Assembly (NCBI RefSeq): GCF_017483025.1
Contig: NZ_JAFUMA010000066.1
Coordinates: 1-64,000, forward strand
Reading direction: 5' to 3'
DNA from: Anaerotignum sp.
Lineage (GTDB): Bacteria; Bacillota; Clostridia; Lachnospirales; Anaerotignaceae
DNA length: 64,000 bases
Shown: positions 1 to 13,098 of the stretch, one piece after another
How the letters are laid out: each line of letters opens with the position of its first letter
Numbering within the stretch: the stretch's first letter is position 1
The notes under the pieces: generated by a model
Seen by the model: the letters and a program-made list of their open reading frames with translations, nothing else
The model's database searches: none
Told to the model about the DNA's origin: nothing
Made by a program: the position numbers and the translations under genes

Positions 1-210
1 TAACATAATCCAATTTATTTTTCTTGTCAATCATATTATTTCTTTATTTCCATTATCGAAAATTGTAGAAAAGATTTTGTACTTTTTCTAGCGAGCATTG
101 AAAACACCGAAAAACGAGCATTAAAAAAAGTCATTTTTGCGTACAAAAATGACTTTCCAAACTACATGATATTGTTATTTTATATAAACTTCAACCACTA
201 AATATGGTGT
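1..210. other. AT-rich intergenic stretch at window start
   Basis: No open frame with coding character is visible here. The only structure is the terminator of rlmD at 121-156. A short repeat, CGAGCATT, occurs twice just before it (around 91-98 and 115-122), with no clear role. Confidence 0.5.
121..156 (-). terminator. Intrinsic terminator of the yhaM-rlmD unit
   Basis: The arms at 127-139 and 144-156 are a perfect 13-bp inverted repeat with a 4-nt loop. Read on the minus strand it is followed by a run of seven T. It lies 55 bp beyond the rlmD stop. Confidence 0.85.
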
Positions 211-1575
211 TTACTTCGTTTTAGCGAGCATGCTCACTACCTCAACGTGGACGCTATGGCTGAACTGATCCACAGGCTGAACCTCCTTCAACTCATAGCC
301 ACCCTCTCTCAATACCACCAGGTCTCTCGCCCATGTGGCGGGGTTACAGGAAACATATACGATTTTTTCAGGACTGATCTGCAGGATGGTTTCCAAGAGC
401 TTCGCGTCGCAGCCCTTTCTGGGAGGGTCCACCACCACGATATCCGCCGTAATGCCTTCTTCTTCATACAGTCTGGGGATGACCTCCTCCGCCGCGCCCA
501 CGGCAAAGGTCGCATTGGTGATGCCATTTCTTGCAGCGTTTTTCTTCGCATCGGCAATGGCTTCAGGAACGATCTCTACGCCGAATACCTGCTTCGCCTT
601 TCTGGCAAAGAACAGCGAAATGGTGCCGATACCGCAATACAGGTCAAGGACAGTCTCATCGCCTTTCAGGTCTGCCAATTCCACCGCCTTACCATAGAGC
701 ACCTCCGTCTGGATGGGGTTCACCTGATAGAAAGACAGAGGGGAAATTTCAAATTCGATGCCATCGATAAAATCGGTGATGGTATCCTTGCCCCAGAGGG
801 TGATGATCTTCTGACCCAAAATCACGTTTGTTTTTTCCTTATTCACATTCAGCACGATGGAAACAACGCCCTCCACCGCTTTCAAGCGTTCCACCAGAAT
901 ATCGCTGTTGGGCAGTTTTTTCCCGTTGATGACAATGCAGACCATGATCTCGCCGCTGTTTCTGCCAATACGGGTCAGGATATGGCGCACCAACCCCTTA
1001 TGTTTTTCCTCATCATACAGAGGGATGTTATATTCATTCAGGAATGTACGAACAATGCCGATGATCTCATCATTACATTCATTCTGCAGGAAGCACTTCT
1101 CCGTATCCACGATACGGTGGCTGCGTTTCGCATAGAAGCCGATGGCACAGCCTTCTTTACCCTGCCCCACGGGGAACTGGGCTTTATTGCGGTAACGCCA
1201 AGGGTCTTCCATACCAAGCGCAGGTTTCACTTCCACATCCTTGATACCGCCAATGCGTTCCATCACATCTTTGACTTCTCTGGTCTTATAAGCAAGCTCT
1301 GCTTCATAGGACAGATGCTGCAGCTGGCAGCCGCCGCACTGCTTCGCCACGGGGCACATGGGTTCTCTGCGTTCAGAGGAAATCTCAAGAATCTCCATCA
1401 GCTTGCCATAGCCGTAGTTCTTTTTTACTTTTACGATCAGAACCCTGATTTTTTCACCGGGCAACGCGCCTTCCACAAAAACCGTATATCCATCGATACG
1501 ACCAATGCCTTCGCCGTTGCTGCCCAGCGCTTCTATCTGCATTTCATAAATTTTATTCTTTTCTACAGGAATCAT
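211..1575 (-). CDS. rlmD: 23S rRNA (uracil-5-)-methyltransferase, RlmD/TrmA family
   Basis: SAM-dependent enzyme that methylates C5 of a uridine in 23S rRNA. The 454 residues hold an N-terminal TRAM RNA-binding domain (about 1-60), an iron-sulfur Cys set (C74, C80, C83 in CPVAKQCGGC, plus a later Cys near DTEKC), a SAM-binding motif VLDLYCGIGTIS, the DPPRKGCD motif, and the catalytic Cys in VYVSCNPATWARD. Length matches the family. It is the last gene of a minus-strand unit and its ATG overlaps the upstream nuclease-half stop by 4 bp, suggesting translational coupling. Within the RlmD/RlmCD/TrmA group the exact target uridine cannot be fixed from sequence alone. Confidence 0.92.
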   Translation of the reverse strand: MIPVEKNKIYEMQIEALGSNGEGIGRIDGYTVFVEGALPGEKIRVLIVKVKKNYGYGKLMEILEISSERREPMCPVAKQCGGCQLQHLSYEAELAYKTREVKDVMERIGGIKDVEVKPALGMEDPWRYRNKAQFPVGQGKEGCAIGFYAKRSHRIVDTEKCFLQNECNDEIIGIVRTFLNEYNIPLYDEEKHKGLVRHILTRIGRNSGEIMVCIVINGKKLPNSDILVERLKAVEGVVSIVLNVNKEKTNVILGQKIITLWGKDTITDFIDGIEFEISPLSFYQVNPIQTEVLYGKAVELADLKGDETVLDLYCGIGTISLFFARKAKQVFGVEIVPEAIADAKKNAARNGITNATFAVGAAEEVIPRLYEEEGITADIVVVDPPRKGCDAKLLETILQISPEKIVYVSCNPATWARDLVVLREGGYELKEVQPVDQFSHSVHVEVVSMLAKTK

Positions 1576-2195
1576 TGTTCCTCGTCTCCTTTTACTATCT
1601 CTGTCTCAGAAAACTGACAAACTGTACCATTGCAAACACAGGGACGACAATGGGCAAAACTGGGCTTTGCTTTTCCGACACCATAGTGCAGCATATCTCG
1701 CATCTCCTTCATGGTCCCCAGCACTTCATTCCGCACCTTGGCTGTGTTTTTCACTTCGAACATATAGTCCTGATAAACGATGCGCCCAAAAGCAGGCTTT
1801 TTGCCGTAAACATCCTCTAAAATCAGGAAATAGGCCCCCAGTTGCAGCAAGTCACCATGATGGGGCAGCTCCTCTTCATCAATGCTGCCACTTTTCAGCT
1901 CCACAGGAACGATCTTCTTACTGAGTCTGCTTTGGAACACATAGTCCGGCTTGCCCTGCAATTCATACTTTGCAGAATAAAGCAGCTTGCCAAAGTCCTC
2001 TTCTCCTCTTCTTCCCTGCTTCTGGTCTGCATAGATAAGGGCGTAGCCCGCCACATCATCCCTCGCTGTCATTTTACGAATGGCAGGTTTTGCATACTTC
2101 ACCAGCAGAAGGACTGCTAACAGCAAAACCATTCCAAGAATCAGCCAGTCCGTCATTCCAAGGCTGCTCAAAAAACTTTTAAACCATTCCGCCAT
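1572..2195 (-). CDS. Membrane-anchored Cas4/RecB-like nuclease, C-terminal half
   Basis: 207 residues. A membrane segment at about 14-36 is followed by a PD-(D/E)XK nuclease core: GKPDYV (D84), VPVELKSG (E99, K101) and QLGAY (Q118, Y122). Three to four C-terminal cysteines (C183, C186, C188, C193) have the C-x2-C-x6-C spacing of the Cas4 iron-sulfur site. The elements missing from a complete Cas4 fold, the first Cys and the motif-I His, are in the 98-residue ORF immediately upstream, which overlaps by 17 bp in another frame. I infer that the two chains form one nuclease at the membrane, or that a frameshift divides one gene. No cas genes or CRISPR array lie nearby. The downstream overlap with rlmD places it in the same transcript. 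Confidence 0.75.
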   Translation of the reverse strand: MAEWFKSFLSSLGMTDWLILGMVLLLAVLLLVKYAKPAIRKMTARDDVAGYALIYADQKQGRRGEEDFGKLLYSAKYELQGKPDYVFQSRLSKKIVPVELKSGSIDEEELPHHGDLLQLGAYFLILEDVYGKKPAFGRIVYQDYMFEVKNTAKVRNEVLGTMKEMRDMLHYGVGKAKPSFAHCRPCVCNGTVCQFSETEIVKGDEEQ

Positions 2196-2475
2196 GATTC
2201 ATCCACAAATACCCCGCCACGGCTGCCGCTGCAAACAGCAGCACCGCCACTTTCCAAAGCATTCTTCTGATCTTTAACAAAAGATAACTTCTGCGGTGAT
2301 ATTTTTCTCCTTTCCGAAAGTCACTGGCCAGACTATCCTCCAGATTGAGCCGTTCATTTCGTTCTACGTACAGCCTTCTCAGTTCCTTTCGTCCGTATAA
2401 ACGTTCATAATACCACTGATAGGGACAATAATCATATTTACTTATTTCATGGGCAGAAAGTGTTTTTCTCTCCAT
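2179..2475 (-). CDS. Membrane-anchored Cas4/RecB-like nuclease, N-terminal half
   Basis: 98 residues. The N-terminus LSAHEISKYDYCPYQWYYE matches the start of Cas4/RecB-type nucleases (first iron-sulfur Cys C17 of a CPxxxYY motif), and FRKGEKYHRR (H60) matches the motif-I G-x2-H signature. The protein then enters a membrane segment (about 71-92) and stops, without any D/E-x-K core. That core lies in the next gene. The gap from yhaM is 11 bp, so it is in the same operon. Standing alone it should be catalytically incomplete. Confidence 0.72.
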   Translation of the reverse strand: MERKTLSAHEISKYDYCPYQWYYERLYGRKELRRLYVERNERLNLEDSLASDFRKGEKYHRRSYLLLKIRRMLWKVAVLLFAAAAVAGYLWMNHGGMV

Positions 2476-2486
2476 TTCAATTCCTC

Positions 2487-3431
2487 TTATTTATAATCGG
2501 AGCGGCGGATATTTCTTGCCAGCATGCGGTGATAACCCGCCCAGCTGCCCTGCGTATTATCCGCTGCAATCGTTTCTTCAAACATTTTTGTTTTTGCATC
2601 CATGTTATCTGCGCAATGCAGGATGAATGCTTCAATGGTTTCAGGCACCTTGGGGGAACCATATTCCAGTTCCCCATGGTGAGAAAGGATACAGTGCATC
2701 ATCAGTGTTGTCAGCTGTTTAGGGAAGCCTTCGATTTTTGCCGCTGTATCGCGAATCAATTCCGCGCCCATGAAGATATGGCCCAAAAGCTGACCTTCGT
2801 CTGTATAGTCATTTTCAGGAAAATCGGACAGTTCCATGATTTTGCCCACATCGTGCAGCATGGCGCAGGCAACCAGAATATCTCTATCCACATATTCATA
2901 TCTGGGTGCCATAAAGTCACAAATCTGTGTGACGGATAATGTATGTTCCACCAAGCCGCCACGGAAGCTATGATGCATGGTCTTTGCTGCGGAATGATAC
3001 TTGAAATCCTTGCTGATCACGGGATGCTTCAGGAAAATTTCTTCCAACAGCTTTTTGATATAGGGGCTCTGGATGGTCTTGATGTACGCGATCAGCTGAT
3101 TATACATTTCATCGATATTTTTATCTGTACTGGGGATAAAATCTGCGGGATCATATTCCCCTTCGCGGCTGCGGCGGATGCGTTTCACGTTCAGCTGCAA
3201 TTCGTTATTGAATGTGGTCACGAAAGCATCGATCTTGATAAAATCGTTTTCCTGGAAGCTCTGGATATCCTTATTCATATCCCATACCTTCGCATCCACA
3301 ATACCTGTTTTATCCTGTAATTTTAAAGAAAGATATGTTTTCCCATTTCGGGATTTCATACTGGTTCTGGATTTGCAGAGGTAATGCTCGATGACATTTT
3401 CGCCCTCTCTCAATTCATTGATATATTTCAT
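2487..3431 (-). CDS. yhaM: 3'-5' exoribonuclease YhaM family (OB fold plus HD domain)
   Basis: 314 residues. An N-terminal OB-fold nucleic-acid-binding domain (about 1-100, GIVDAKVWD) is followed by an HD phosphohydrolase domain with MHHSFRGGLVEHT, CAMLHDVGK and LSHHGELEYGSP metal-ligand motifs. This arrangement is characteristic of YhaM, a cytoplasmic 3'-5' exonuclease of Gram-positive bacteria that trims RNA and can act on DNA. It is the first gene of the unit yhaM, nuclease N-half, nuclease C-half, rlmD, so a nucleic-acid-processing theme runs through the operon. Confidence 0.9.
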   Translation of the reverse strand: MKYINELREGENVIEHYLCKSRTSMKSRNGKTYLSLKLQDKTGIVDAKVWDMNKDIQSFQENDFIKIDAFVTTFNNELQLNVKRIRRSREGEYDPADFIPSTDKNIDEMYNQLIAYIKTIQSPYIKKLLEEIFLKHPVISKDFKYHSAAKTMHHSFRGGLVEHTLSVTQICDFMAPRYEYVDRDILVACAMLHDVGKIMELSDFPENDYTDEGQLLGHIFMGAELIRDTAAKIEGFPKQLTTLMMHCILSHHGELEYGSPKVPETIEAFILHCADNMDAKTKMFEETIAADNTQGSWAGYHRMLARNIRRSDYK

Positions 3432-3631
3432 GCCAGTCCTCCGTTTCTATCCTTGCGGCATTGATTTTTTCTTTAAGCCATACTACGGCTAATTTTACAG
3501 TATAGTTCATTATACACGATTTCTATCCGATATACCAGTGGAACGCTTTCCTTTCTGCAAAAAATCCACGGGAACAAATCCGATTTTTTTCCGTCTAAAG
3601 AAACATTAAGAAAATCTTATGTTTCCCCGCC

Positions 3632-3660
3632 TTGGTTTTTTTGTCCGGGTATGGTATCAT
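3632..3660 (+). promoter_or_regulatory. Candidate sigma-A promoter for the stalk-domain protein
   Basis: TTGGTT at 3632-3637 and TATCAT at 3655-3660 are separated by 17 bp. The transcript would begin about 30 bp before the start codon. The stretch from 3432 to here shows nothing else recognisable. Confidence 0.5.
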
Positions 3661-3696
3661 AAAATGGATGAAATGTATATAAAAGGAGGAATCTCT

Positions 3697-4812
3697 ATGA
3701 ACAAGAAACTTCTCTGCGGCGTTCTTTCCACCGCTGTTCTCTTCGGCGCATGCCCCGCAACAGCTTTGGCAGAGGACCCCCTCAATGAATTAAGAGACAG
3801 CCTGGATTTCCGTAATGCAGAAGATGATCTGCAGGGCGACGGCTGGTATTGGGATGCCAACGACCTGACACTGACGCTGGAAGATTTCCGCTATTATGTG
3901 CCCCAGGACAGACTGGAGGAAAAAGCTGCCATCTATCTGCCCGATGAAAGCTATGTTGAGATCGAAGGCAACAACAACGTACTGGAGACCCGTTCCTATC
4001 ACTGCAACGCCTTCTACTGCGATGGTGAAGTGAATTTCTACGGTGACGGCGAACTGGAGATCAATACAAAAAGCAGTGGCGCCAGCGCATTTTATGTATA
4101 TGAAGGCCCTATCCTTTTCGATGATGAAGTTGTCATCAATGTAGAATCCGAACGAGGTTACATCATCTACCTGAAATATGCAAAAGGCGACAAGGCCCTC
4201 ATCAGTATCCAGGATGAAGCCAAAATCAGCTTCAATAAAGAAGACCACGATAACCACAATATTACCCTTGTGAAAAAATCCGGTGCGAAAACATATTCCA
4301 GCTGGCTGGATTATGCCGAAGAAAAGGATGAATGGGATGATGAATACATCAACCTGGTAGCAAGACCCGCCGTTGTAGAAAAGGAAGAAGAAGCAACGCA
4401 GGAACCCATCGAAACCACACCCGTAAATGAATATCAGATCACCATCGGCAAAACTGATATCGTGAAAAACGGCGAAGTTTCTTATACTGCAGACGTTTCC
4501 CCTTATCTGAAGAACGGCTACACTATGCTGCCCTTGCGTGCCCTTCTGGAAGTTTCCAATCCCGAACAGCAGGTAAACTGGAATAACGGCACAAAGAGCG
4601 CCCACACCTTCGTAAACAACAAGCTGGTAAGCATCAAGCCTGGTGAAGCAACATATACAAAAGCACTGGAAAACATTGCACTTTGCACACCTGCGGAAAC
4701 TGTAAACGGCAGACTCTTCGTTTCCCTGAGAGACTGGATGAGCATCATGGAAATCGATGGTTCTCAGCTAAGCTGGAATCCTGAAACAAAAACAGTAACA
4801 TTAAAGTATTGA
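3697..4812 (+). CDS. Secreted protein with C-terminal copper-amine-oxidase-like stalk domain
   Basis: The start is the ATG at 3697, preceded by AAAGGAGG at 3683-3690, rather than the longer frame from 3619. The 371-residue product has a Sec signal peptide ending near ATALAED. An acidic beta-rich middle region (about 30-230, with repeated short Tyr/Asp strands) resembles the carbohydrate-binding or right-handed-helix style of surface proteins but I could not name it. The C-terminal ~130 residues form the stalk domain (YTMLPLRALLE, GRLFVSLRDW, WNPETKTVTL). Related stalk domains end two other secreted proteins in this window. Monocistronic. Function unknown; a cell-surface role is inferred. Confidence 0.75.
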   Translation: MNKKLLCGVLSTAVLFGACPATALAEDPLNELRDSLDFRNAEDDLQGDGWYWDANDLTLTLEDFRYYVPQDRLEEKAAIYLPDESYVEIEGNNNVLETRSYHCNAFYCDGEVNFYGDGELEINTKSSGASAFYVYEGPILFDDEVVINVESERGYIIYLKYAKGDKALISIQDEAKISFNKEDHDNHNITLVKKSGAKTYSSWLDYAEEKDEWDDEYINLVARPAVVEKEEEATQEPIETTPVNEYQITIGKTDIVKNGEVSYTADVSPYLKNGYTMLPLRALLEVSNPEQQVNWNNGTKSAHTFVNNKLVSIKPGEATYTKALENIALCTPAETVNGRLFVSLRDWMSIMEIDGSQLSWNPETKTVTLKY

Positions 4813-4820
4813 TAAATTTT

Positions 4821-4848
4821 AAGCCCTTCTTCCCGAAGGGCTTTTTTA
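4821..4848 (+). terminator. Intrinsic terminator
   Basis: AAGCCCTTC-TTCCC-GAAGGGCTT followed by T-rich sequence, 8 bp after the stop of the stalk-domain gene. Confidence 0.85.
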
Positions 4849-4886
4849 TGTTATAATGGAAAAAAATCTTTGAAAGGATGATCTCC

Positions 4887-5537
4887 ATGAAAGAAGCAGC
4901 TTTCACTTTATATGATAGAAACACATGGCCTCGCAGCAGCCATTTCGATTATTACACCAAGGGGTTCGTCAAATCCGTCAACAGCATGACGGTGCGTCTG
5001 GATATGACCCATTTCCTGACGGAAACAAAGAAACTCGCATTGAAATTCTTCCCCGCCTTCGCCGCCCTGACGGGACAGGTCATTGCCAGCATGCCCGAAC
5101 TATGTACCAACATGGACAAAGACGGGAATCCAGGCTACTTTTCCTATCTGAACCCCAACTTTACCATCTTCCATGAAGACGACAAGACCTTTTCCGATGT
5201 TTGGAGCCCCTATGACGAAGATTTCGATACCTTCTACAATAATCTGCTGACAGACGCAGAAACATACAAAGACAAAAAAGGCATTAAAGTAAAAGAAGGA
5301 CAACCCATGAATTTCTTCTGCATCTCCTGCGTGCCATGGCTGGATTATGCGGCCTATTGTCCCGTCAATTACGGCGGTTCCCCCAATCTCTTCCCCATCA
5401 TCACCTTCGGGAAATATACAGAGGAAAACGGGAAATTTACAATGCCTTTCACCCTGACCATCAGCCATGCCTGCATGGACGGCTATCATCTGTCCAGGTT
5501 TTTCAATGACCTGCAGGCTACTCTGGACAAATTTTAA
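4887..5537 (+). CDS. Chloramphenicol acetyltransferase-like (CatA family) acyltransferase
   Basis: The ATG at 4887 is chosen because AAAGG at 4874-4878 sits 8 nt before it; the ATG at 4878 lies inside that site. The 216-residue length is typical of type-A CATs. The C-terminal motif HACMDGYHLSRFF aligns with the HHAVCDGFH active site, so the catalytic His and the structural Asp-Gly are kept. DYAAYCPVNYGGS and PIITFGKY fit the family trimer fold. The family transfers acetyl from acetyl-CoA to chloramphenicol, but chromosomal CAT-like members often have other or unknown acceptors. No mobile-element genes lie beside it. Followed after 12 bp by a DUF523 gene, likely cotranscribed. Confidence 0.82.
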   Translation: MKEAAFTLYDRNTWPRSSHFDYYTKGFVKSVNSMTVRLDMTHFLTETKKLALKFFPAFAALTGQVIASMPELCTNMDKDGNPGYFSYLNPNFTIFHEDDKTFSDVWSPYDEDFDTFYNNLLTDAETYKDKKGIKVKEGQPMNFFCISCVPWLDYAAYCPVNYGGSPNLFPIITFGKYTEENGKFTMPFTLTISHACMDGYHLSRFFNDLQATLDKF

Positions 5538-5549
5538 GGAGGCGTTTTT

Positions 5550-5975
5550 ATGAAAATCGCAGTCAGCGCGTGCCTGTTAGGGCACGACTGCAAATACAAC
5601 GGCGGCAACAACCACAGCCAGAAGGTTCTGGACTATATCGAAGGACATGAGGTCATCCCCGTTTGTCCGGAAGTGACAGGCGGCCTGCCTGTACCCCGCG
5701 TGCCTGTGGAATTGCGGGATGGCAAAGCCATCAACGCCGATGGAGAAGACGTAACGGAATTTTTCCGCCGCGGCGTGGAAAAAACCATGAAACGATTGGC
5801 GGGACAGGATATCGACCTTGCCATCCTGCAGCCCAGAAGTCCTTCCTGTGGGTGCAAGAAGATTTACGACGGCACATTCACCAAAACCCTCATCGATGGC
5901 AAGGGTATGTTTGCTCAGGCTCTGGCAGAGGCAGGTATTCCCTTAATAGATGAAACCGACGTTCCTGAAAAATAA
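5550..5975 (+). CDS. DUF523 family protein
   Basis: 141 residues, preceded by AAGGAGG. The N-terminus VSACLLGHDCKYNGG and the motifs VCPEVTGGLPVPR and LQPRSPSCGC are typical of DUF523 (YbbK-like) proteins. Conserved Cys residues (in SACLLG, VCPE and SCGC) suggest a metal or iron-sulfur site, though this is unproven. The family has no settled function; some members are fused to sulfur-relay domains. It lies just behind the CAT-like gene, probably in the same transcript. Confidence 0.85.
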   Translation: MKIAVSACLLGHDCKYNGGNNHSQKVLDYIEGHEVIPVCPEVTGGLPVPRVPVELRDGKAINADGEDVTEFFRRGVEKTMKRLAGQDIDLAILQPRSPSCGCKKIYDGTFTKTLIDGKGMFAQALAEAGIPLIDETDVPEK

Positions 5976-5978
5976 GAA

Positions 5979-6012
5979 AAAGCCTTGGAAAAATCCAGGG
6001 CTTTCTTTTTAT
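5979..6012. terminator. Bidirectional terminator
   Basis: AAAGCCTTGG and CCAGGGCTTT form an imperfect 10-bp stem with T-runs on both sides, so it can end the DUF523 transcript and that of the convergent membrane gene, whose stop it overlaps. Confidence 0.75.
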
Positions 6013-6467
6013 TCTTCTTTATTTTTCGTTCTGCCAACGAATTCATATGCAAGGATCGTAAAGACAGGAACAACCAAGAGATATACGACAATATTGAATG
6101 GGGTGAAATTATAGGTATTGGAGACTTCACCAAATTCAAGGAAATATCGGCAAACCATGCCGATGACTGTGAATAAAACCATTCTCGGATACAAACTCGG
6201 CCCTCTGTCCTCCCCATAAACACCATACAGCCCTGCCGCAATAATACCATAAGCACTAACAGTCGAAATAATATTTGTCCATTTTAGAGGAAAGTGTTCG
6301 TTCCAGAGAGGGAAACTAAAACAGGCAAAAAAGACAACAAATCCCCAGACGATGCCTTTCATAATTCCCTTTTTCTCATGCTTCTTTGCCCAGCCTGCCA
6401 AAAAGCCTGCCGCTCCGCCCAGCAAAGCAATCACCAGAATAAAAAACCAGAATCCATTCCAACGCAT
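6009..6467 (-). CDS. Small four-helix integral membrane protein, unknown function
   Basis: The start at 6467 is supported by GGAGGTGATCCT directly before the ATG; a longer frame to 6593 lacks such a site. The 152 residues contain four hydrophobic segments (roughly FWFFILVIALLGGAAGFLA, GIVWGFVVFFACFSF, a middle pair around YGIIAAGLYGVY and MVLFTVIGMVC, and VVYLLVVPVFTILAY). A charged GWAKKHEKKG loop follows the first helix. I do not recognise the family. It appears monocistronic. Confidence 0.6.
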   Translation of the reverse strand: MRWNGFWFFILVIALLGGAAGFLAGWAKKHEKKGIMKGIVWGFVVFFACFSFPLWNEHFPLKWTNIISTVSAYGIIAAGLYGVYGEDRGPSLYPRMVLFTVIGMVCRYFLEFGEVSNTYNFTPFNIVVYLLVVPVFTILAYEFVGRTKNKEE

Positions 6468-6576
6468 AGGATCACCTCCTCCTCTTTTTTCCATTGTATC
6501 CAACTTATCCACTGCTTTCAACAAAATATAAAAAGCGAAAGAAAATCTTAAGATATGCGCCACCCGAAGGATTCCA

Positions 6577-6605
6577 AACAAAAAAGCGTCCATACGGACG
6601 CTTTT
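6577..6605 (-). terminator. Intrinsic terminator of the amino-acid ABC operon
   Basis: AAAAGCGTCC-GTAT-GGACGCTTTT read on the minus strand, running into T-rich sequence, 8 bp after the ATPase stop. Confidence 0.88.
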
Positions 6606-6612
6606 ATTCTAA

Positions 6613-7359
6613 TTAAATTACCTTCGCAAGGAACTGCTGCAGACGGTCGCTCTTAGGGTGATCGAAGATCTCGTTGGGAGAGCCTTCTTCCACCTGTTTC
6701 CCGTCCGCCATAAACATCACACGAGTGCCAACTTCCTTGGCAAAGCCCATTTCATGGGTAACGACTACCATTGTCATGTTGTCATGAGCCAACTGTTTCA
6801 TTACTTCCAGAACTTCCCCTACCATTTCAGGGTCGAGGGCAGAAGTAGGTTCGTCGAACAGCATCACTTCTGGTTCCATACACAGGGCACGCACAATGGC
6901 GATACGCTGTTTCTGGCCGCCGGAAAGCTGAGAAGGGTACGCATTCGCTCTGTCTTCCAGACCAACACGTCTCAGCAGCTGCATTGCCTTTTCCGTCGCT
7001 TCCGCTTCGCTCTTTTTCAGCAGCTTCATGGGGGCAATGGTCATATTTTTCAGTATTGTCATATGGGGGAAGAGATTGAAATGCTGGAACACCATACCCA
7101 TTTTCTGACGATGGATATTGATGTCCGTTTTATCATCAGTGATATCTGTGTCTTCGAAGAAGATACTGCCGCCAGTGGGCACTTCCAGCAGATTCAGGCA
7201 GCGCAGGAACGTAGACTTACCGGAACCGGAGGGGCCGATAACAACGACTACTTCGCCTTTTTTGATCTCTGTATTGATACCGTCCAGAGCTTTGATCTCG
7301 CCGCCATTATAATATTTCTGCAAACCTTCTACTTTGATCAATGTTTCATTAGCGTTCAC
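6613..7359 (-). CDS. Polar amino-acid ABC transporter ATP-binding protein (GlnQ-like)
   Basis: 248 residues, the usual length. Walker [11 protein letters not shown]-loop region [10 protein letters not shown], signature LSGGQKQR, Walker [15 protein letters not shown] and switch His VVTHEMG are all present. It powers uptake of a polar amino acid together with the permease and binding protein encoded just upstream. Its start overlaps the permease stop by 11 bp. Substrate cannot be read from the ATPase. Confidence 0.93.
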
Positions 7360-8059
7360 TGTTTCTCAACCTCCTTTCAAGGATACTTACCAGATATGTG
7401 AAGAACATTACCATCGCCAAATAGATGATGGCAACGCCGATCAGAGGCATGAATGCATCGTAGGTACGGCTTCGGATGATGTCGCCGCCCTTTGTCAGGT
7501 CGTGGAGGGCAACGTAACCGGATACGGATGTTTCCTTCAGCAGTACGATGAATTCATTTGCCAGGGTAGGCAATACATTTTTGAATGCCTGAGGAATGAT
7601 GATATATTGCATGGTCTGCACATAATTGAAGCCCAGGCTGCGGCCTGCTTCGAACTGGCCATTATCAATGGACATGATGCCGCTTCGGAAAATTTCGGCA
7701 ACGTACGCACCGGAGTTCATACCGAAAGCCAGTGTTGCAACCAAGATCTTATTTGTGGAAGATACCATGACAACGTAGTACATAATCATCAGCTGTACAA
7801 CAACGGGCGTACCGCGGATAACGGTCAGGTATACTCTGCAAATGGCATTCAGGATGCTCAGGATGATCTTGCTGAACCCCTTCATGTCTTTACCGTTTTT
7901 ATCGTATGTGGAACGGATGATGGCGATGACAACACCGATGATAACACCAACGACCAATGCAAAGAATGTTACCTTCAGTGTAGCACCAAGGCCTTCCCAA
8001 AGGTATTTCCATCGATCCTGTTCAATGAAGTTGAATATGAATTTCTCTTTCAAACTCAT
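7349..8059 (-). CDS. Polar amino-acid ABC transporter permease (GlnP/HisM-like)
   Basis: 236 residues with five to six hydrophobic segments. The permease EAA loop is seen as [28 protein letters not shown], the part that docks on the ATPase. [13 protein letters not shown] and RGTPVVVQL are standard motifs of the His/Glu/Gln/Arg family. A GGGGGAG site precedes the ATG. It is the middle gene of binding protein, permease, ATPase, with a stem-loop between it and the binding-protein gene. Confidence 0.92.
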
Positions 8060-8102
8060 TCAGGAAACTCCCCCTTCTATTTTTTCTCATAACCGCAAAT
8101 CA

Positions 8103-8122
8103 GGGGTGACTTTCGTCACCCC
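8103..8122 (-). promoter_or_regulatory. Intercistronic stem-loop between binding protein and permease
   Basis: GGGGTGAC-TTTC-GTCACCCC is a perfect 8-bp stem with no T-run. Such hairpins commonly stabilise the upstream mRNA or cause partial termination, so that the binding protein is made in excess. That role is inferred. Confidence 0.6.
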
Positions 8123-8157
8123 CGAATGATTACTTTGTCAAAATTATGGCCTTTAAA

Positions 8158-8952
8158 TTATTCAGCGCTGATGTATTTGTCGATGATAGCCTGAACTGTG
8201 CCGTCAGCGATCAGTTCCTGCAGAGCGCCGTTTACCTGTGCTGTCAGTTCGCTGTCTTTTGCGAAGCAGATAGCGTAATCTTCTTCAGCGTATGCTGTTT
8301 CCAGAATTTTCAGGCCTTCGTTAGCTGCTACGAATTCTTTTGCGGGTTCGTTATCGATTACTACGCAGTCAACTTTATCCTGTGTCAGAGCCAGAACTGC
8401 GTCAGCGCCTTTGTTGAAGCGTTCTACTTTAGCCAGGCCAGCATCTTCCAGATCCCATGTTGTGTACAGGTCACCTGTTGTACCTGTCTGAACACCGATC
8501 ATGTGAGAAGCGCCTTCCGCGAACAGATCATCAACGGATGTAATAGCGGAATCTTCTTTTACGATAACAACCTGAACGCCTTTTGCGTAGGAATCAGAGA
8601 AGTCTACGGACTGCATACGTTCTTCTGTTACTGTCATACCAGCCATACCCATGCTTACTTTGCCGCTTGTTACAGCAGGGATGATTGCGTCGAATTCCAT
8701 ATCTTCGATTGCGAAATCCATACCCAGTTTGTCTGCGATTGCTTTTGCGATTTCAGCGTCGATACCAACGATTTCTTCGCCTTCGTAGTATTCGTAAGGA
8801 GGGAATGCTGCGTTAGTCGCCATTACCAGTGTGTTTTCTGTGCCAGCTGCTTCTTCTGCAGGTGCTTCTTCAGAGCCGCCGCAGCCAACCAGAGATGTCA
8901 TCATTGCGAATACCATTGTTGTAGCCAAAAGGCCTTTCATAAATTTTTTCAT
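8158..8952 (-). CDS. Amino-acid ABC transporter substrate-binding lipoprotein
   Basis: The start is the ATG at 8952 behind GGGAGGAAG. The 264-residue product begins with a lipoprotein signal peptide (lipobox LVGC, then GGSEE and an Ala/Glu linker). The SBP family-3 fold follows: NAAFPPYEY, GIDAEIAKAIADKLG, SGKVSMGMAGMTVTEER, DFSDSYAKG, GVQTGTTGD. This fits Glu/Gln/His/Arg-type receptors; the exact ligand is not predictable here. First gene of the three-gene importer, with a strong promoter upstream. Confidence 0.93.
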   Translation of the reverse strand: MKKFMKGLLATTMVFAMMTSLVGCGGSEEAPAEEAAGTENTLVMATNAAFPPYEYYEGEEIVGIDAEIAKAIADKLGMDFAIEDMEFDAIIPAVTSGKVSMGMAGMTVTEERMQSVDFSDSYAKGVQVVIVKEDSAITSVDDLFAEGASHMIGVQTGTTGDLYTTWDLEDAGLAKVERFNKGADAVLALTQDKVDCVVIDNEPAKEFVAANEGLKILETAYAEEDYAICFAKDSELTAQVNGALQELIADGTVQAIIDKYISAE

Positions 8953-9007
8953 TATAATCTTCCTCCCAAATTTTAATACACTATATACGTGCGTTATTAT
9001 CATATGC

Positions 9008-9036
9008 ATTATACTCGCAAAATGCATAAAATACAA
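9008..9036 (-). promoter_or_regulatory. Promoter of the amino-acid ABC operon
   Basis: On the minus strand TTGTAT (9031-9036) and TATAAT (9008-9013) are spaced by 17 bp, about 60 bp before the binding-protein start. Confidence 0.7.
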
Positions 9037-9111
9037 TAACCAAAATGAACTATAAATCCCGTTTTTGTCAGACTTTTTTCAGGAAAAATATCTATAAAAC
9101 CCAAGTTTACC

Positions 9112-9146
9112 ATAAAAAAACGGCCCATTTTCTATGAGCCGCTTTT
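9112..9146 (-). terminator. Terminator of the CLC gene
   Basis: On the minus strand an 8-bp stem with one mismatch (CGGCtCAT against ATGgGCCG) is followed by a run of T. It lies about 120 bp after the CLC stop. Confidence 0.65.
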
Positions 9147-9176
9147 GTATCCGGAAAATTGCATTGCATAAAATCA

Positions 9177-9197
9177 TGCATAAAATAATTTTATGCA
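9177..9197. repeat. 21-bp palindrome TGCATAAAAT-A-ATTTTATGCA
   Basis: A perfect 10-bp inverted repeat around one A. A further copy of the half-site lies just beside it (9165-9174) and another near 9022-9031. It could be an operator or a structured 3' end of the CLC transcript. Confidence 0.5.
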
Positions 9198-9264
9198 CAA
9201 AATCGATTCAATGTGCTTTATATATGCACATCCTTCCTGCCACCTCAGACATCGATCCCTGCTT

Positions 9265-10539
9265 TTAATGCACGTTTTTATTGATGAATTCCGGCTGTAC
9301 CTTGGAATACATGATCTTCTGTTCCGAATAGAGACCATAATAACCGGACAGCATGTAGCTGATACCGCAGCAGAGGGCATAATAGCCTGTGCCCTTGAAG
9401 CCGAAAAGCTCGATGCAGAGGATGATGGATGCCAGAGGGCAGTTGGTCACGCCACAGAAAACCGCCGCCATGCCCAGGGATGCCGCAAAGGTGGCAGGCA
9501 GCCCCAGCAAAGGCCCTGCGATACAGCCAAAGGTGGCCCCGATAAAGAAGGAAGGCACGATTTCACCGCCCTTGAAGCCTGCACCCAGGGTCAATGACGT
9601 AAACAAAATTTTCAGCAGGAAGGCCTCCGCCTTGGCGTCCCCATTCAGGGCTTTGATGATAATATCCATCCCTGCGCCGTTGTAATCCCTGCAGCCTACC
9701 AGATAGGTCAGTGCGATAATGATGCAGCCGCCGACAAAAACACGAACCATGGGATTTTTGATACGTTCCCGATAGGCATGCCCTGTATGCTCCATAACAA
9801 CACAGAAGAGGATACTCAACAGGGCGCAGAGGATGCCCAGCAGCCCTACGCTCCAGCCGGTTTCCATGGCGATCTTCGTAGGAATATCCGCCACAGTGAA
9901 GGCAGTTGGCGCAATGCCCATTGCCTGAGACATACTGGATGCCACCAGCGCCGCAACTGTACAGGGCACGATGGCAGAATAATGCATGACACCAACGGTG
10001 ATGACTTCCATAGCAAAGACCACAGAGGTCAGAGGTGTACCAAACAAAGCAGAAAAGCCCGCCGCCATACCACACATGGTCATGATGCGCTCCTCTTTTT
10101 CATCCAGCTCCATGGTGCGCCCGAAGCTGGAAGCAATGCTGCCGCCCAGCTGCAGCGCCGCCCCTTCCCTGCCGGCAGAACCGCCCAAGAGATGGGTCAC
10201 AACGGTGCTGAAAAAAATCAGCGGTGCCGTCTTGATGGTAACTGCTTCATTGGAACGGACAGCAACAAGGATAAAATTCGTTCCTCTATCCTTTTCCATG
10301 CCCGCCAGGCGATAGGCCAGCACGATGGCAAGGCCACCCAAAGGCAGCAGCCAGATCAGCATAGGATGTTCCGTGCGGAATTCCGTTGCCCATTCCAGCA
10401 TCAGATGGAAAGCAACACCCACCAGACCAACCACGAAGCCAATGCAAAGCCCGGCACACATCCAGGAAGCAAAATGAAGAAGATTGTCCTCACTTCTATT
10501 AAATTTATCTTCATATTTTCTGTAAAATCTTTTTATCAT
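9265..10539 (-). CDS. CLC-type anion channel/antiporter
   Basis: The ATG at 10539 has GGGAGG before it and is preferred over the longer frame to 10620. The 424-residue protein has about ten hydrophobic helices. CLC motifs are GGSAGREGAALQLGG (the gating-Glu region) and GAGFKGGEIVPSFFIGATFG. At the first ion-binding loop the canonical GSGIP is replaced by RGTNFIL, so the usual pore Ser is missing. That type of change is known from CLC-F fluoride exporters and from some bacterial CLCs of unknown selectivity. A fluoride riboswitch is not visible in the leader. Transcribed alone from its own promoter. Confidence 0.87.
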   Translation of the reverse strand: MIKRFYRKYEDKFNRSEDNLLHFASWMCAGLCIGFVVGLVGVAFHLMLEWATEFRTEHPMLIWLLPLGGLAIVLAYRLAGMEKDRGTNFILVAVRSNEAVTIKTAPLIFFSTVVTHLLGGSAGREGAALQLGGSIASSFGRTMELDEKEERIMTMCGMAAGFSALFGTPLTSVVFAMEVITVGVMHYSAIVPCTVAALVASSMSQAMGIAPTAFTVADIPTKIAMETGWSVGLLGILCALLSILFCVVMEHTGHAYRERIKNPMVRVFVGGCIIIALTYLVGCRDYNGAGMDIIIKALNGDAKAEAFLLKILFTSLTLGAGFKGGEIVPSFFIGATFGCIAGPLLGLPATFAASLGMAAVFCGVTNCPLASIILCIELFGFKGTGYYALCCGISYMLSGYYGLYSEQKIMYSKVQPEFINKNVH

Positions 10540-10577
10540 AAAGGGCGCTCCCTCCCTGTGCTTACATTTTCTACAGT

Positions 10578-10606
10578 AGTATACACCCCGAAAAACGCAT
10601 TCGCAA
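10578..10606 (-). promoter_or_regulatory. Promoter of the CLC gene
   Basis: Minus-strand TTGCGA (10601-10606) and TATACT (10578-10583) with exactly 17 bp between them. Confidence 0.7.
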
Positions 10607-10619
10607 CCATTTTTCAACA

Positions 10620-10654
10620 TAAAAAGTGCCTGATATTTCGGATATCAGACACTT
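10620..10654 (-). terminator. Terminator of the regulator-kinase-DUF6440 operon
   Basis: AAGTGTCTGATAT-CCGAA-ATATCAGGCACTT on the minus strand, followed by T-rich sequence. It starts 5 bp after the DUF6440 stop. Confidence 0.82.
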
Positions 10655-10659
10655 ATTTT

Positions 10660-10860
10660 TTACAGTTTATATGGATCATGGAGCAGAGGCTTGCCATCCT
10701 TATCAATCAGCGGGGTCATGCCTCCGGCATACCCGCTGGCATGGAACAGATACTGAACGCCTGTTTCCTTATCCACCCAAATTTCTGTTACATTAGATAC
10801 GCCTTGGACATAAATTTTTTCGAATCTGTCCTCTACTTTATCGCCCATATATTTTGCCAT
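10660..10860 (-). CDS. DUF6440 family small protein
   Basis: 66 residues, soluble. RFEKIYVQGVSN, WVDKETGVQYLF and GYAGGMTPLIDKDGKPL match the short DUF6440 family as I remember it. It starts 3 bp after the histidine-kinase stop, so it is the third gene of the regulator-kinase operon. Its function is unknown; the position suggests a link to the signal or output of that two-component system. Confidence 0.75.
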   Translation of the reverse strand: MAKYMGDKVEDRFEKIYVQGVSNVTEIWVDKETGVQYLFHASGYAGGMTPLIDKDGKPLLHDPYKL

Positions 10861-10863
10861 AGC

Positions 10864-13098
10864 TTATTCCCCCTCTTTTTCTTCCATTTCTTCTTCCTCC
10901 GGCCAAAGCGGGATGCTGACGATAGCCTTGAACAGATCGCCGTCCACCTGGATACCAAAGGTACCATCCTGAATTTCCGCCAGGCTCTGGGTGATGGAAA
11001 GGCCCAGGCCCGAGCCCTCCGTCGTTCTGGCTTCATCCCCCCGGACAAAACGCTCCGTCAGTCTTGTTTCATCAAAATCGATAGGTGCTGCTGAGATATT
11101 TTTCATCACCAGCACGCCATAGCCGTCCAACTTGAAAATATCCACATAAACGCGGGAATGGGGCATGGAATATTTGATAGCATTAGAAAGAATATTCTCC
11201 AGGATGCGCCACATATGCCCGCCATCGGCATCGATGAAAACAGGCTCGCTGCTGCTGAGCTTGACCGTCAGCCCTGCCGCTTCCATCTTATCTTCCATTT
11301 CGCCCATGGCCTGCAGCAGCAGCTGCTTATAATCCACCCGCATCTTTGTCACGGTCAGGTTGCCGCTGGAAGCCTTGCTAGCCTCGATCAAGTCTTCAAT
11401 GAGCTGCTTCAGGCGGTAGGATTTTTCATGGAGGATATCCACATAACCCTCGGCTCTTTCGTTTTCCAGATCCTCTTTTTCCAGCAGATCCACATAAGAA
11501 ATGATGGAGGTCAGAGGTGTTTTCAGGTCATGGGAAACGTTGGTGATCAGTTCTGCCTTCATCCTCTCTCCTTTGACCGCATCATCCACGGCATTTTTGA
11601 AGCCCTCCTGAATATTCGCCACATCCTCCGCGAAATTCAGGAAGGACGGGGAGATTTTATTCAAGTCCAGGGGATAGGAGAAATTCCCCTTGGAGCTTTC
11701 CTTGGCAGAGACCATGATCTCTTTCAGGGAACGCAGGGCACGGATAAACCAATACATACACAAAACATTGAACAAGACCAGGAAGATGCCCGCCAGCATG
11801 GCAAATTCCACATAGCCATAATAGGGTGCCATAACCGCCACGCCCATGATGGCGCAGTTTCCCAGGCCATAGCAGAGCATGACGATGACCATCCAGCCGC
11901 GGAAAGTCTTGCCTGTGAAAAGCTCACTCATCCTGCGGATGGATGCGGAGATCCATGTATTGCGGAAAAAACTCTTATCCTTGATCTGTCTGGATACGGA
12001 AAGGAGATAACTAAGCCCGACGCCAACAGCCGCCAAATAGAGCGCACCTAACATCGTTGCGAAAACATAGCTCCAGAAAGCAACTGTCCCCTGCATGACG
12101 GTCTCCATCAGAGCCGACGCCGCAAGAAAGGCTGCCACGAAAAACAGAAACACCAGCAGAAAATGGACTTCATTATAAATGCGGTCTGCCATAGTCAGCT
12201 GCACTTTGCCATAGCGTTCCTTCTGCCCCGTTACCCGCATCAAGTGGACAAGGCAGACCAGAAGCCCCAGCAAAGAAACAGCAAAGACGCCGAATAAAAT
12301 GGGAAGGCTCTGCTTCGCATAGCTGAAATCCTGCCACATATCATAAAAGGCATCCCCCGGCAGCAGAGGGTCACGGATAGCACCAAAAAACTTATAATTG
12401 CTCTGCTCCAAAATAGGATTGTCATAAGCATCAAAATAGTAAGGATTTTTTCCCAAATAGTCGCTGCTGAAGCCCGCAGAAAGCACCAGGGTACGTTCTG
12501 CTTCGCCGATCTCACTTTTGGAAGCATTACCGCCCATGATATTCCCATTTTCGTCCTCTACATAATAAAGGAAGTTTTTCATTCCCTCCAGATAACGAAC
12601 ACAATTTTTATATTCATCCAGCTGTCGCTGAAGGTACATCTGATAATAGGAAGGCAACCGACTTTCCACCAGCCCCTCATATTCCGCCAGATTTTCCTGC
12701 AGGCTGTCGGGGATGCTGCCATAAATATTCAGTCCATCATAGGTATCATTGATCTCCGTATTGCCAGTGATGACTCCATCCACAATGCCGTAATACCGCT
12801 TGAAGCCGCTGATGAGTTTGTCCCTGTCCACGACTTCCCCGGCTGCAATACGTTCTTCGCTGCGATAATAGATATCCGCCTGGACAGCCTGATCCAAAGT
12901 CTCACCGAAAAATTCATGGAACTCCTGGGTATCATAGACCGTATCAGCATTGATGACATCTCTGCTCCAGTCCTTGAAGATATTCGTAGCCACCACGCCG
13001 CAGAAAAAAATGGAAATGGCACAGACGAAGAAAAGAAGTGTCCCGATGACCTTCCATTTCATTTGAAATGCTTTAGATTTTTTCGATTTTATAGCCAA
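10864..13098 (-). CDS. Multi-pass sensor histidine kinase
   Basis: 744 residues. TM1 lies at about 14-38. A ~230-residue extracellular domain follows (to about 265), with no named sensor fold that I recognise. Then come about five further membrane helices (275-460), a short HAMP-like linker, a HisKA dimerisation domain with NVSHDLKTP (phospho-His H523), and a HATPase domain (ENILSNAIKYS, GSGLGLSITQSLAE). The catalytic part resembles VanS/PhoR-type kinases. It overlaps the upstream regulator by 26 bp and surely pairs with it. The combination of a large exo-domain with a six-helix membrane unit is unusual. Confidence 0.88.
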   Translation of the reverse strand: MAIKSKKSKAFQMKWKVIGTLLFFVCAISIFFCGVVATNIFKDWSRDVINADTVYDTQEFHEFFGETLDQAVQADIYYRSEERIAAGEVVDRDKLISGFKRYYGIVDGVITGNTEINDTYDGLNIYGSIPDSLQENLAEYEGLVESRLPSYYQMYLQRQLDEYKNCVRYLEGMKNFLYYVEDENGNIMGGNASKSEIGEAERTLVLSAGFSSDYLGKNPYYFDAYDNPILEQSNYKFFGAIRDPLLPGDAFYDMWQDFSYAKQSLPILFGVFAVSLLGLLVCLVHLMRVTGQKERYGKVQLTMADRIYNEVHFLLVFLFFVAAFLAASALMETVMQGTVAFWSYVFATMLGALYLAAVGVGLSYLLSVSRQIKDKSFFRNTWISASIRRMSELFTGKTFRGWMVIVMLCYGLGNCAIMGVAVMAPYYGYVEFAMLAGIFLVLFNVLCMYWFIRALRSLKEIMVSAKESSKGNFSYPLDLNKISPSFLNFAEDVANIQEGFKNAVDDAVKGERMKAELITNVSHDLKTPLTSIISYVDLLEKEDLENERAEGYVDILHEKSYRLKQLIEDLIEASKASSGNLTVTKMRVDYKQLLLQAMGEMEDKMEAAGLTVKLSSSEPVFIDADGGHMWRILENILSNAIKYSMPHSRVYVDIFKLDGYGVLVMKNISAAPIDFDETRLTERFVRGDEARTTEGSGLGLSITQSLAEIQDGTFGIQVDGDLFKAIVSIPLWPEEEEMEEKEGE

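Follow-up and report, generated by a model that had tools for sequence, protein, structure and literature searches.

Two overlapping ORFs between yhaM and rlmD

The window, that is, the whole stretch of 64,000 nucleotides analyzed here (Anaerotignum sp., contig NZ_JAFUMA010000066.1, positions 1 to 64,000), carries two short ORFs on the reverse strand. ORF-A (2179..2475, 98 aa) corresponds to the N-terminal half of a Cas4/RecB-like nuclease and has a C-terminal membrane helix, and ORF-B (1572..2195, 207 aa) begins with a membrane helix followed by the remaining part of such a nuclease. They overlap by 17 bp (2179..2195, reverse strand) in different frames, and the overlap contains no conserved slippery site. 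Upstream lies the gene of a yhaM-like 3'-5' exonuclease with an OB fold and an HD domain (2487..3431, reverse strand), a neighbor conserved in 38 of 40 loci. The conserved downstream neighbor is rlmD (211..1575, reverse strand), encoding a 23S rRNA methyltransferase (TIGR00479, 518.6 bits). The four genes yhaM, A, B, and rlmD are tightly packed on one strand, with a gap of 11 nt between yhaM and A and an overlap of 4 nt between B and rlmD. The original prediction, made from this DNA alone, had described two ORFs overlapping by 17 bp in different frames and flanked by the YhaM exonuclease and rlmD; the same coordinates and frames were found again, and the profile matches of the two neighbors agreed. 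Elsewhere, the window encodes a protein that has a signal-peptide-like start and contains a copper amine oxidase N-terminal-like domain (3697–4812; PF07833), as well as a chloramphenicol acetyltransferase-family protein (4878–5537; PF00302, E 1.4e-44).

The Cas4 motifs are divided between the two halves

In A, both C17 (2425..2427, reverse strand, as for all residues given here), the first iron-sulfur ligand of Cas4, and H60 (2296..2298), the metal ligand of motif I, were invariant and aligned with the Cas4 Cys and the Cas4 GxxxH motif, respectively. In B, the motif-II metal ligand D84 (1944..1946; GKPD) was invariant and aligned with one-chain Cas4, the E and K of motif III (E99-L-K101, 1893..1901) were invariant, and so was the QhxxY motif (Q118xxxY122, 1830..1844). 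The C-terminal Cys cluster of B (C183, C186, and C193, plus C188; 1617..1649) was likewise invariant in 25 relatives. The full set of invariant residues of A in these relatives was E10, Y16, C17, W21, Y22, Y27, G56, and H60, and that of B included G81-K-P-D84, E99, K101, Q118, Y122, C183, C186, C188, and C193. Two members of the wider set, L124 and L129, had lost C188, so that C17, C183, C186, and C193 are left as the canonical Cas4 four-Cys set. The RecB-fold motif set is therefore complete only across the pair, with the His of motif I in A and the Asp of motif II, the ExK of motif III, and QhxxY in B. The four-Cys pattern of Cas4 (one N-terminal and three C-terminal) is also found across A and B, and from this pattern a cluster is predicted.

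Profile searches pointed in the same direction. B matched the TIGR00372 cas4 profile with an E value of 1.2e-15, although the match covered only the part after motif I and its 57.8 bits lay below the 65-bit NCBI equivalog cut-off; the read-through A+B chain of a relative, G018, reached 64.7 bits, whereas a B from a second class (see below; L180, 7612–8184) alone scored 99.0 bits, above the cut-off. B also matched PDDEXK_1 (E 4e-5). The A of the window alone gave a weak match to the first 28 positions of PDDEXK_1 and a weak one to the PADLOC Cas4d profile; with a threshold of E < 0.05, the latter was matched by 23 of 25 A homologues, the best of them at 9e-6. When profiles were compared with one-chain Cas4, B matched at 98.3% (E 2e-14) and A, more modestly, at 66.6% (E 5e-5), and the two matches were colinear: A covered the start through motif I, B covered motif II to the end, and the membrane helices appeared as an insertion at the A/B junction. 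The best PDB sequence matches of B were the Cas4 structures 8d3l, 4r5q, and 4ic1; when A alone was searched against PDB sequences, only chance matches were returned.

The order of motifs, namely the N-terminal Cys, GxxxH, GxxD, ExK, QhxxY, and the C-terminal Cys cluster, is shared with solo-Cas4 and CRISPR Cas4 (TIGR00372, PF01930). All residues named in the original prediction (C17 and H60; D84, E99, K101, Q118, Y122, and the Cys cluster) thus exist and are invariant in 25 relatives, and its view that neither half is complete, but that together they supply every Cas4 element, is borne out by the colinear motif order. Judged by homology and motif order, the label "split Cas4" is correct.

Predicted fold of the joined halves

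AlphaFold2 was run on an A+B read-through chain (P0001, from G018), with no templates and no one-chain Cas4 rows in the alignment. Such chains were made from relatives in which A and B are in frame, the stops being read through. The G018 chain, modeled as a single chain and not as two, gave a pLDDT of 81 and a pTM of 0.73. The best Foldseek match was the Cas4 structure 8d3l (E 1.7e-6, TM 0.48 by target), followed by Dna2, MGME1, and RecE. B alone matched 8d3l at E 8.7e-6, nearly as well, indicating that A adds little to the fold score. The predicted fold supports the kinship with Cas4 and is no proof of assembly.

A predicted membrane helix on each half

By hydropathy, the membrane helix of A comprises residues 72–90 (2206..2262, reverse strand) and is preceded by a K/R-rich stretch on the predicted cytoplasmic side, and that of B comprises residues 14–32 (2100..2156, reverse strand) and is followed by one. 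A hydrophobic helix with a mean hydropathy above 1.6 was predicted in 46 of 48 A homologues and 44 of 48 B homologues. The helix of A had a mean of 5.1 K/R residues on its N-terminal side and 0.9 on its C-terminal side, and for the helix of B the means were 1.1 and 5.1, respectively. This positive-inside pattern predicts that the helices are antiparallel and that both catalytic parts are cytoplasmic. The original prediction had placed a helix at the end of A and another at the beginning of B, forming a two-helix hairpin between motifs I and II; strongly hydrophobic stretches were present at both places, and they are inserted at that very point of the Cas4 alignment. In a few members, one helix was missing while that of the partner was kept: B lacked it in L114 and L124, and A lacked it in L130, where its ORF is cut short by an early stop.

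The split is conserved in the order of the window's genome

Both halves were carried by 24 of 60 sampled relatives, in every case as two ORFs next to each other. A profile search across 393 genomes of the order gave matches in 60 genomes for B and 61 for A, and the same 59 genomes contained the two together once two weak matches to other proteins were set aside, along with one A located at the edge of a contig. This A was the single case of A without B, the other unpaired matches being weak. No ORF containing both halves was found in the 393 genomes, nor was a one-ORF intermediate with the membrane hairpin found in the samples of the order, the class, or the phylum.

The junction itself varied freely. 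Among 38 pairs, the A-to-B spacing varied between −74 and +206 nt; relative to A, B was in the +1 frame in 18 pairs, in the +2 frame in 16, and in the identical frame in 4. The in-frame pairs had one or two stops between A and B, including tandem TGA TGA or two TAA in some, and no common slippery or recoding site was found across the relatives. A frame and spacing that drift in this way are incompatible with a single gene, a frameshift error, and a recoding signal alike.

The gene order yhaM-A-B-rlmD was kept in most of the 40 loci, which come from about ten families. In relatives without A and B, yhaM directly adjoined rlmD in 10 of 11, indicating that A and B were gained or lost as a unit, as is expected if neither half works alone. 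Both ORFs had dN/dS values of 0.04–0.2, indicating purifying selection.

In one genome, G182, the break in the operon falls precisely between the two halves: yhaM and A are on one contig (A at 3877–4200 of L128), and B and rlmD are on another (B at 7988–8572 of L127). Neither half is at a contig end, both keep all motifs, and B has its own Shine-Dalgarno-like aggaagg and an ATG. As G182 is a draft with about 5% contamination, this single unlinked case needs confirmation.

A second lineage carries the pair in a different setting

A phylum-wide search revealed the A-B pair in a second class as well, in families f166 and f147. B was carried by 21 of 37 sampled genomes of this class, including all but one of f166, and the pair was split in 15 of 15 loci examined, usually with a 4-nt overlap. 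The other matches examined in the class and phylum samples were ordinary one-ORF Cas4. In one member, G1004, the open frame of A (L178, 8425–8649) does not include the N-terminal Cys region, as would fit either a decaying copy or a frameshift in this draft genome.

In the second class, the neighbors of the pair differ from yhaM and rlmD. There, a flippase-like membrane protein is encoded near the pair, and in L177–L182 a PdaA-type delta-lactam de-N-acetylase lipoprotein directly follows A-B (TIGR02884, 330 and 314 bits). As no neighbor besides A and B themselves is common to both lineages, the role of the pair is not readable from its context. A sporulation role, prompted by the pdaA-type neighbor, was considered and is not supported, since the presence of spoIVA does not tell carriers apart from non-carriers: it was matched in 18 of 18 high-quality carriers but also in 21 of 25 non-carriers, and in the second class nearly all non-carriers have it too. 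A phage origin was rejected as well; no relative was found among viral contigs, and PHROG was unmatched by either half alone.

In a tree of the B half, built from 63 split forms and 19 one-chain Cas4 sequences, all split forms fell on one side of a branch with a support of 100/99, apart from one-chain Cas4, although the tool warned that long branches meet at this dividing join. The tree is consistent with a single old fission.

Alternative explanations of the pair

The original prediction had left two options, a split nuclease at the membrane or one gene broken by a frameshift. The second option supposes that a single cas4-like gene of the window's genome was recently disrupted, either by a frameshift or by a sequencing error, which would account for two ORFs that overlap in different frames and jointly resemble one protein. 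This is almost certainly wrong: the identical split occurs in all pair-carrying relatives, from many families and two classes, and each half has a membrane helix and a start codon of its own and is under purifying selection. With the pair present as two ORFs in all carriers found, the broken gene is refuted; the split is real and is kept in about 80 sampled species of two classes. Very unlikely, too, is that programmed ribosomal frameshifting or stop read-through joins A and B into one protein. Recoding would allow for the short overlaps seen in many relatives and for the 4 of 38 pairs that share one frame interrupted by one or two stops, but the remaining pairs are divided between the other two frames, their spacing is far from fixed, and tandem stops stand between some of the in-frame pairs. 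Moreover, a common slippery site is lacking, B has its own start, and the halves of G182 lie on different contigs. The conserved split with its free frame and spacing instead supports the first option, a split membrane nuclease with putative activity.

Two further explanations accept the split and concern the function. The halves might no longer form a nuclease, each being exapted as a membrane-associated DNA-binding protein, a fate proposed for the split Cas4 that Thermoproteus tenax virus 1 (TTV1) encodes. An inactivated split Cas4 is a precedent for this (PMC4625639), and the similarity of A to Cas4 is modest. We nevertheless regard it as unlikely, because 25 highly diverged relatives all keep the His, Asp, Glu, Lys, Gln, and Tyr residues unchanged, as well as the four Cys, whereas the catalytic residues are lost in TTV1, and because the halves are gained or lost together. 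A Cas4 of CRISPR adaptation, engaged in prespacer processing and relocated to the membrane, would fit the matches of B to Cas4 profiles, including the 99 bits with which a second-class B passes the NCBI cas4 cut-off. It is highly improbable, since the neighbors are yhaM/rlmD or pdaA and not cas genes, and since a search for Cas1 in the window's genome found none, as in many other carriers. Cas1 was present in some carriers and absent from others, with no consistent co-occurrence with the pair. Positions 1–12000 of the window contained no CRISPR-like direct repeats, which, together with the lack of Cas1 in the genome, agrees with the earlier statement that no CRISPR is nearby.

Comparison with known nucleases

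Cas4-type nucleases are, to our knowledge, known as single chains. A single polypeptide, one of the traits of the Cas4 family, is not what the pair-carrying genomes encode: they have two ORFs, each half with a helix where the protein is divided between motifs I and II, and no nearby cas genes. Like solo-Cas4, the pair lies outside CRISPR loci (PMC5704561), and neither split nor transmembrane forms appear in the main text of that survey, the main one on Cas4. The only split Cas4 found in our literature search was that of TTV1, in which the gene is divided into the adjacent ORFs TP1 and gp7, with Cys1 in one ORF and Cys2–4 in the other (PMC4625639). In that virus, the cut is within QhxxY, the catalytic residues are lost, and TP1 is now a nucleocapsid protein (PMC4625639). 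In the pair described here, the cut is instead between motifs I and II with no loss of catalytic residues, both halves have a helix, and the genes are chromosomal and conserved. In the open-access literature, with most subscription journals outside the search, no active, conserved, or membrane-anchored split Cas4 was reported, and the two-part enzyme is apparently undescribed so far.

More distant comparisons concern nucleases of the Dna2, MGME1, Exo5, and AddB type. These RecB-fold enzymes cut single-stranded DNA ends, and those we know of consist of one chain, soluble or helicase-fused, unsplit and without membrane anchors. They have the PD-(D/E)XK RecB fold predicted for the pair and were among its neighbors in the fold search (5eax, 5zyt, 7lw7, and 4ceh).

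A proposed two-chain nuclease at the membrane

Taking the whole of the evidence, we consider it likely that two distinct genes, A and B, are translationally coupled and that their products assemble into one heterodimeric, membrane-tethered Fe-S nuclease of the Cas4/RecB type, which is the best explanation overall. The heterodimer, the Fe-S cluster, the nuclease activity, the DNA substrate, and the membrane location are all inferred from the features above. In such an enzyme, A would give the motif-I His and the first Cys of the cluster, and B would give the Asp, Glu, Lys, Gln, and Tyr residues and the other three Cys. The A/B interface would then contain both the metal site and the Fe-S cluster, and either chain alone would be inactive. 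The C-terminal helix of A and the N-terminal helix of B would cross the membrane antiparallel to each other, with the catalytic parts facing the cytoplasm, and the enzyme would trim DNA ends, most likely single-stranded ones, on the inner surface of the membrane. The most economical proposal is an Fe-S RecB-fold nuclease that is located at the membrane and acts on the ends of DNA. As for its role, our guess is membrane-associated DNA repair, or the clearance of incoming or damaged DNA, perhaps together with YhaM in one lineage. A broader and more tentative reading is that the pair may belong to a so far undescribed family of membrane-embedded Fe-S nucleases, obligately two-chain and present in two classes, in which the active site and the cluster are each built from two polypeptides and which is dedicated to DNA processing at the inner membrane face.

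The split also bears on annotation. B alone can pass the NCBI cut-off for "CRISPR-associated Cas4" despite the motif-I His being encoded by another gene, and A is too short to be recognized. If the proposed reading is true, the pair would represent a rare old fission through the active site of an enzyme in bacteria and a natural split nuclease that is active only once both pieces meet, and it would point to CRISPR-independent processing of DNA at the bacterial membrane.
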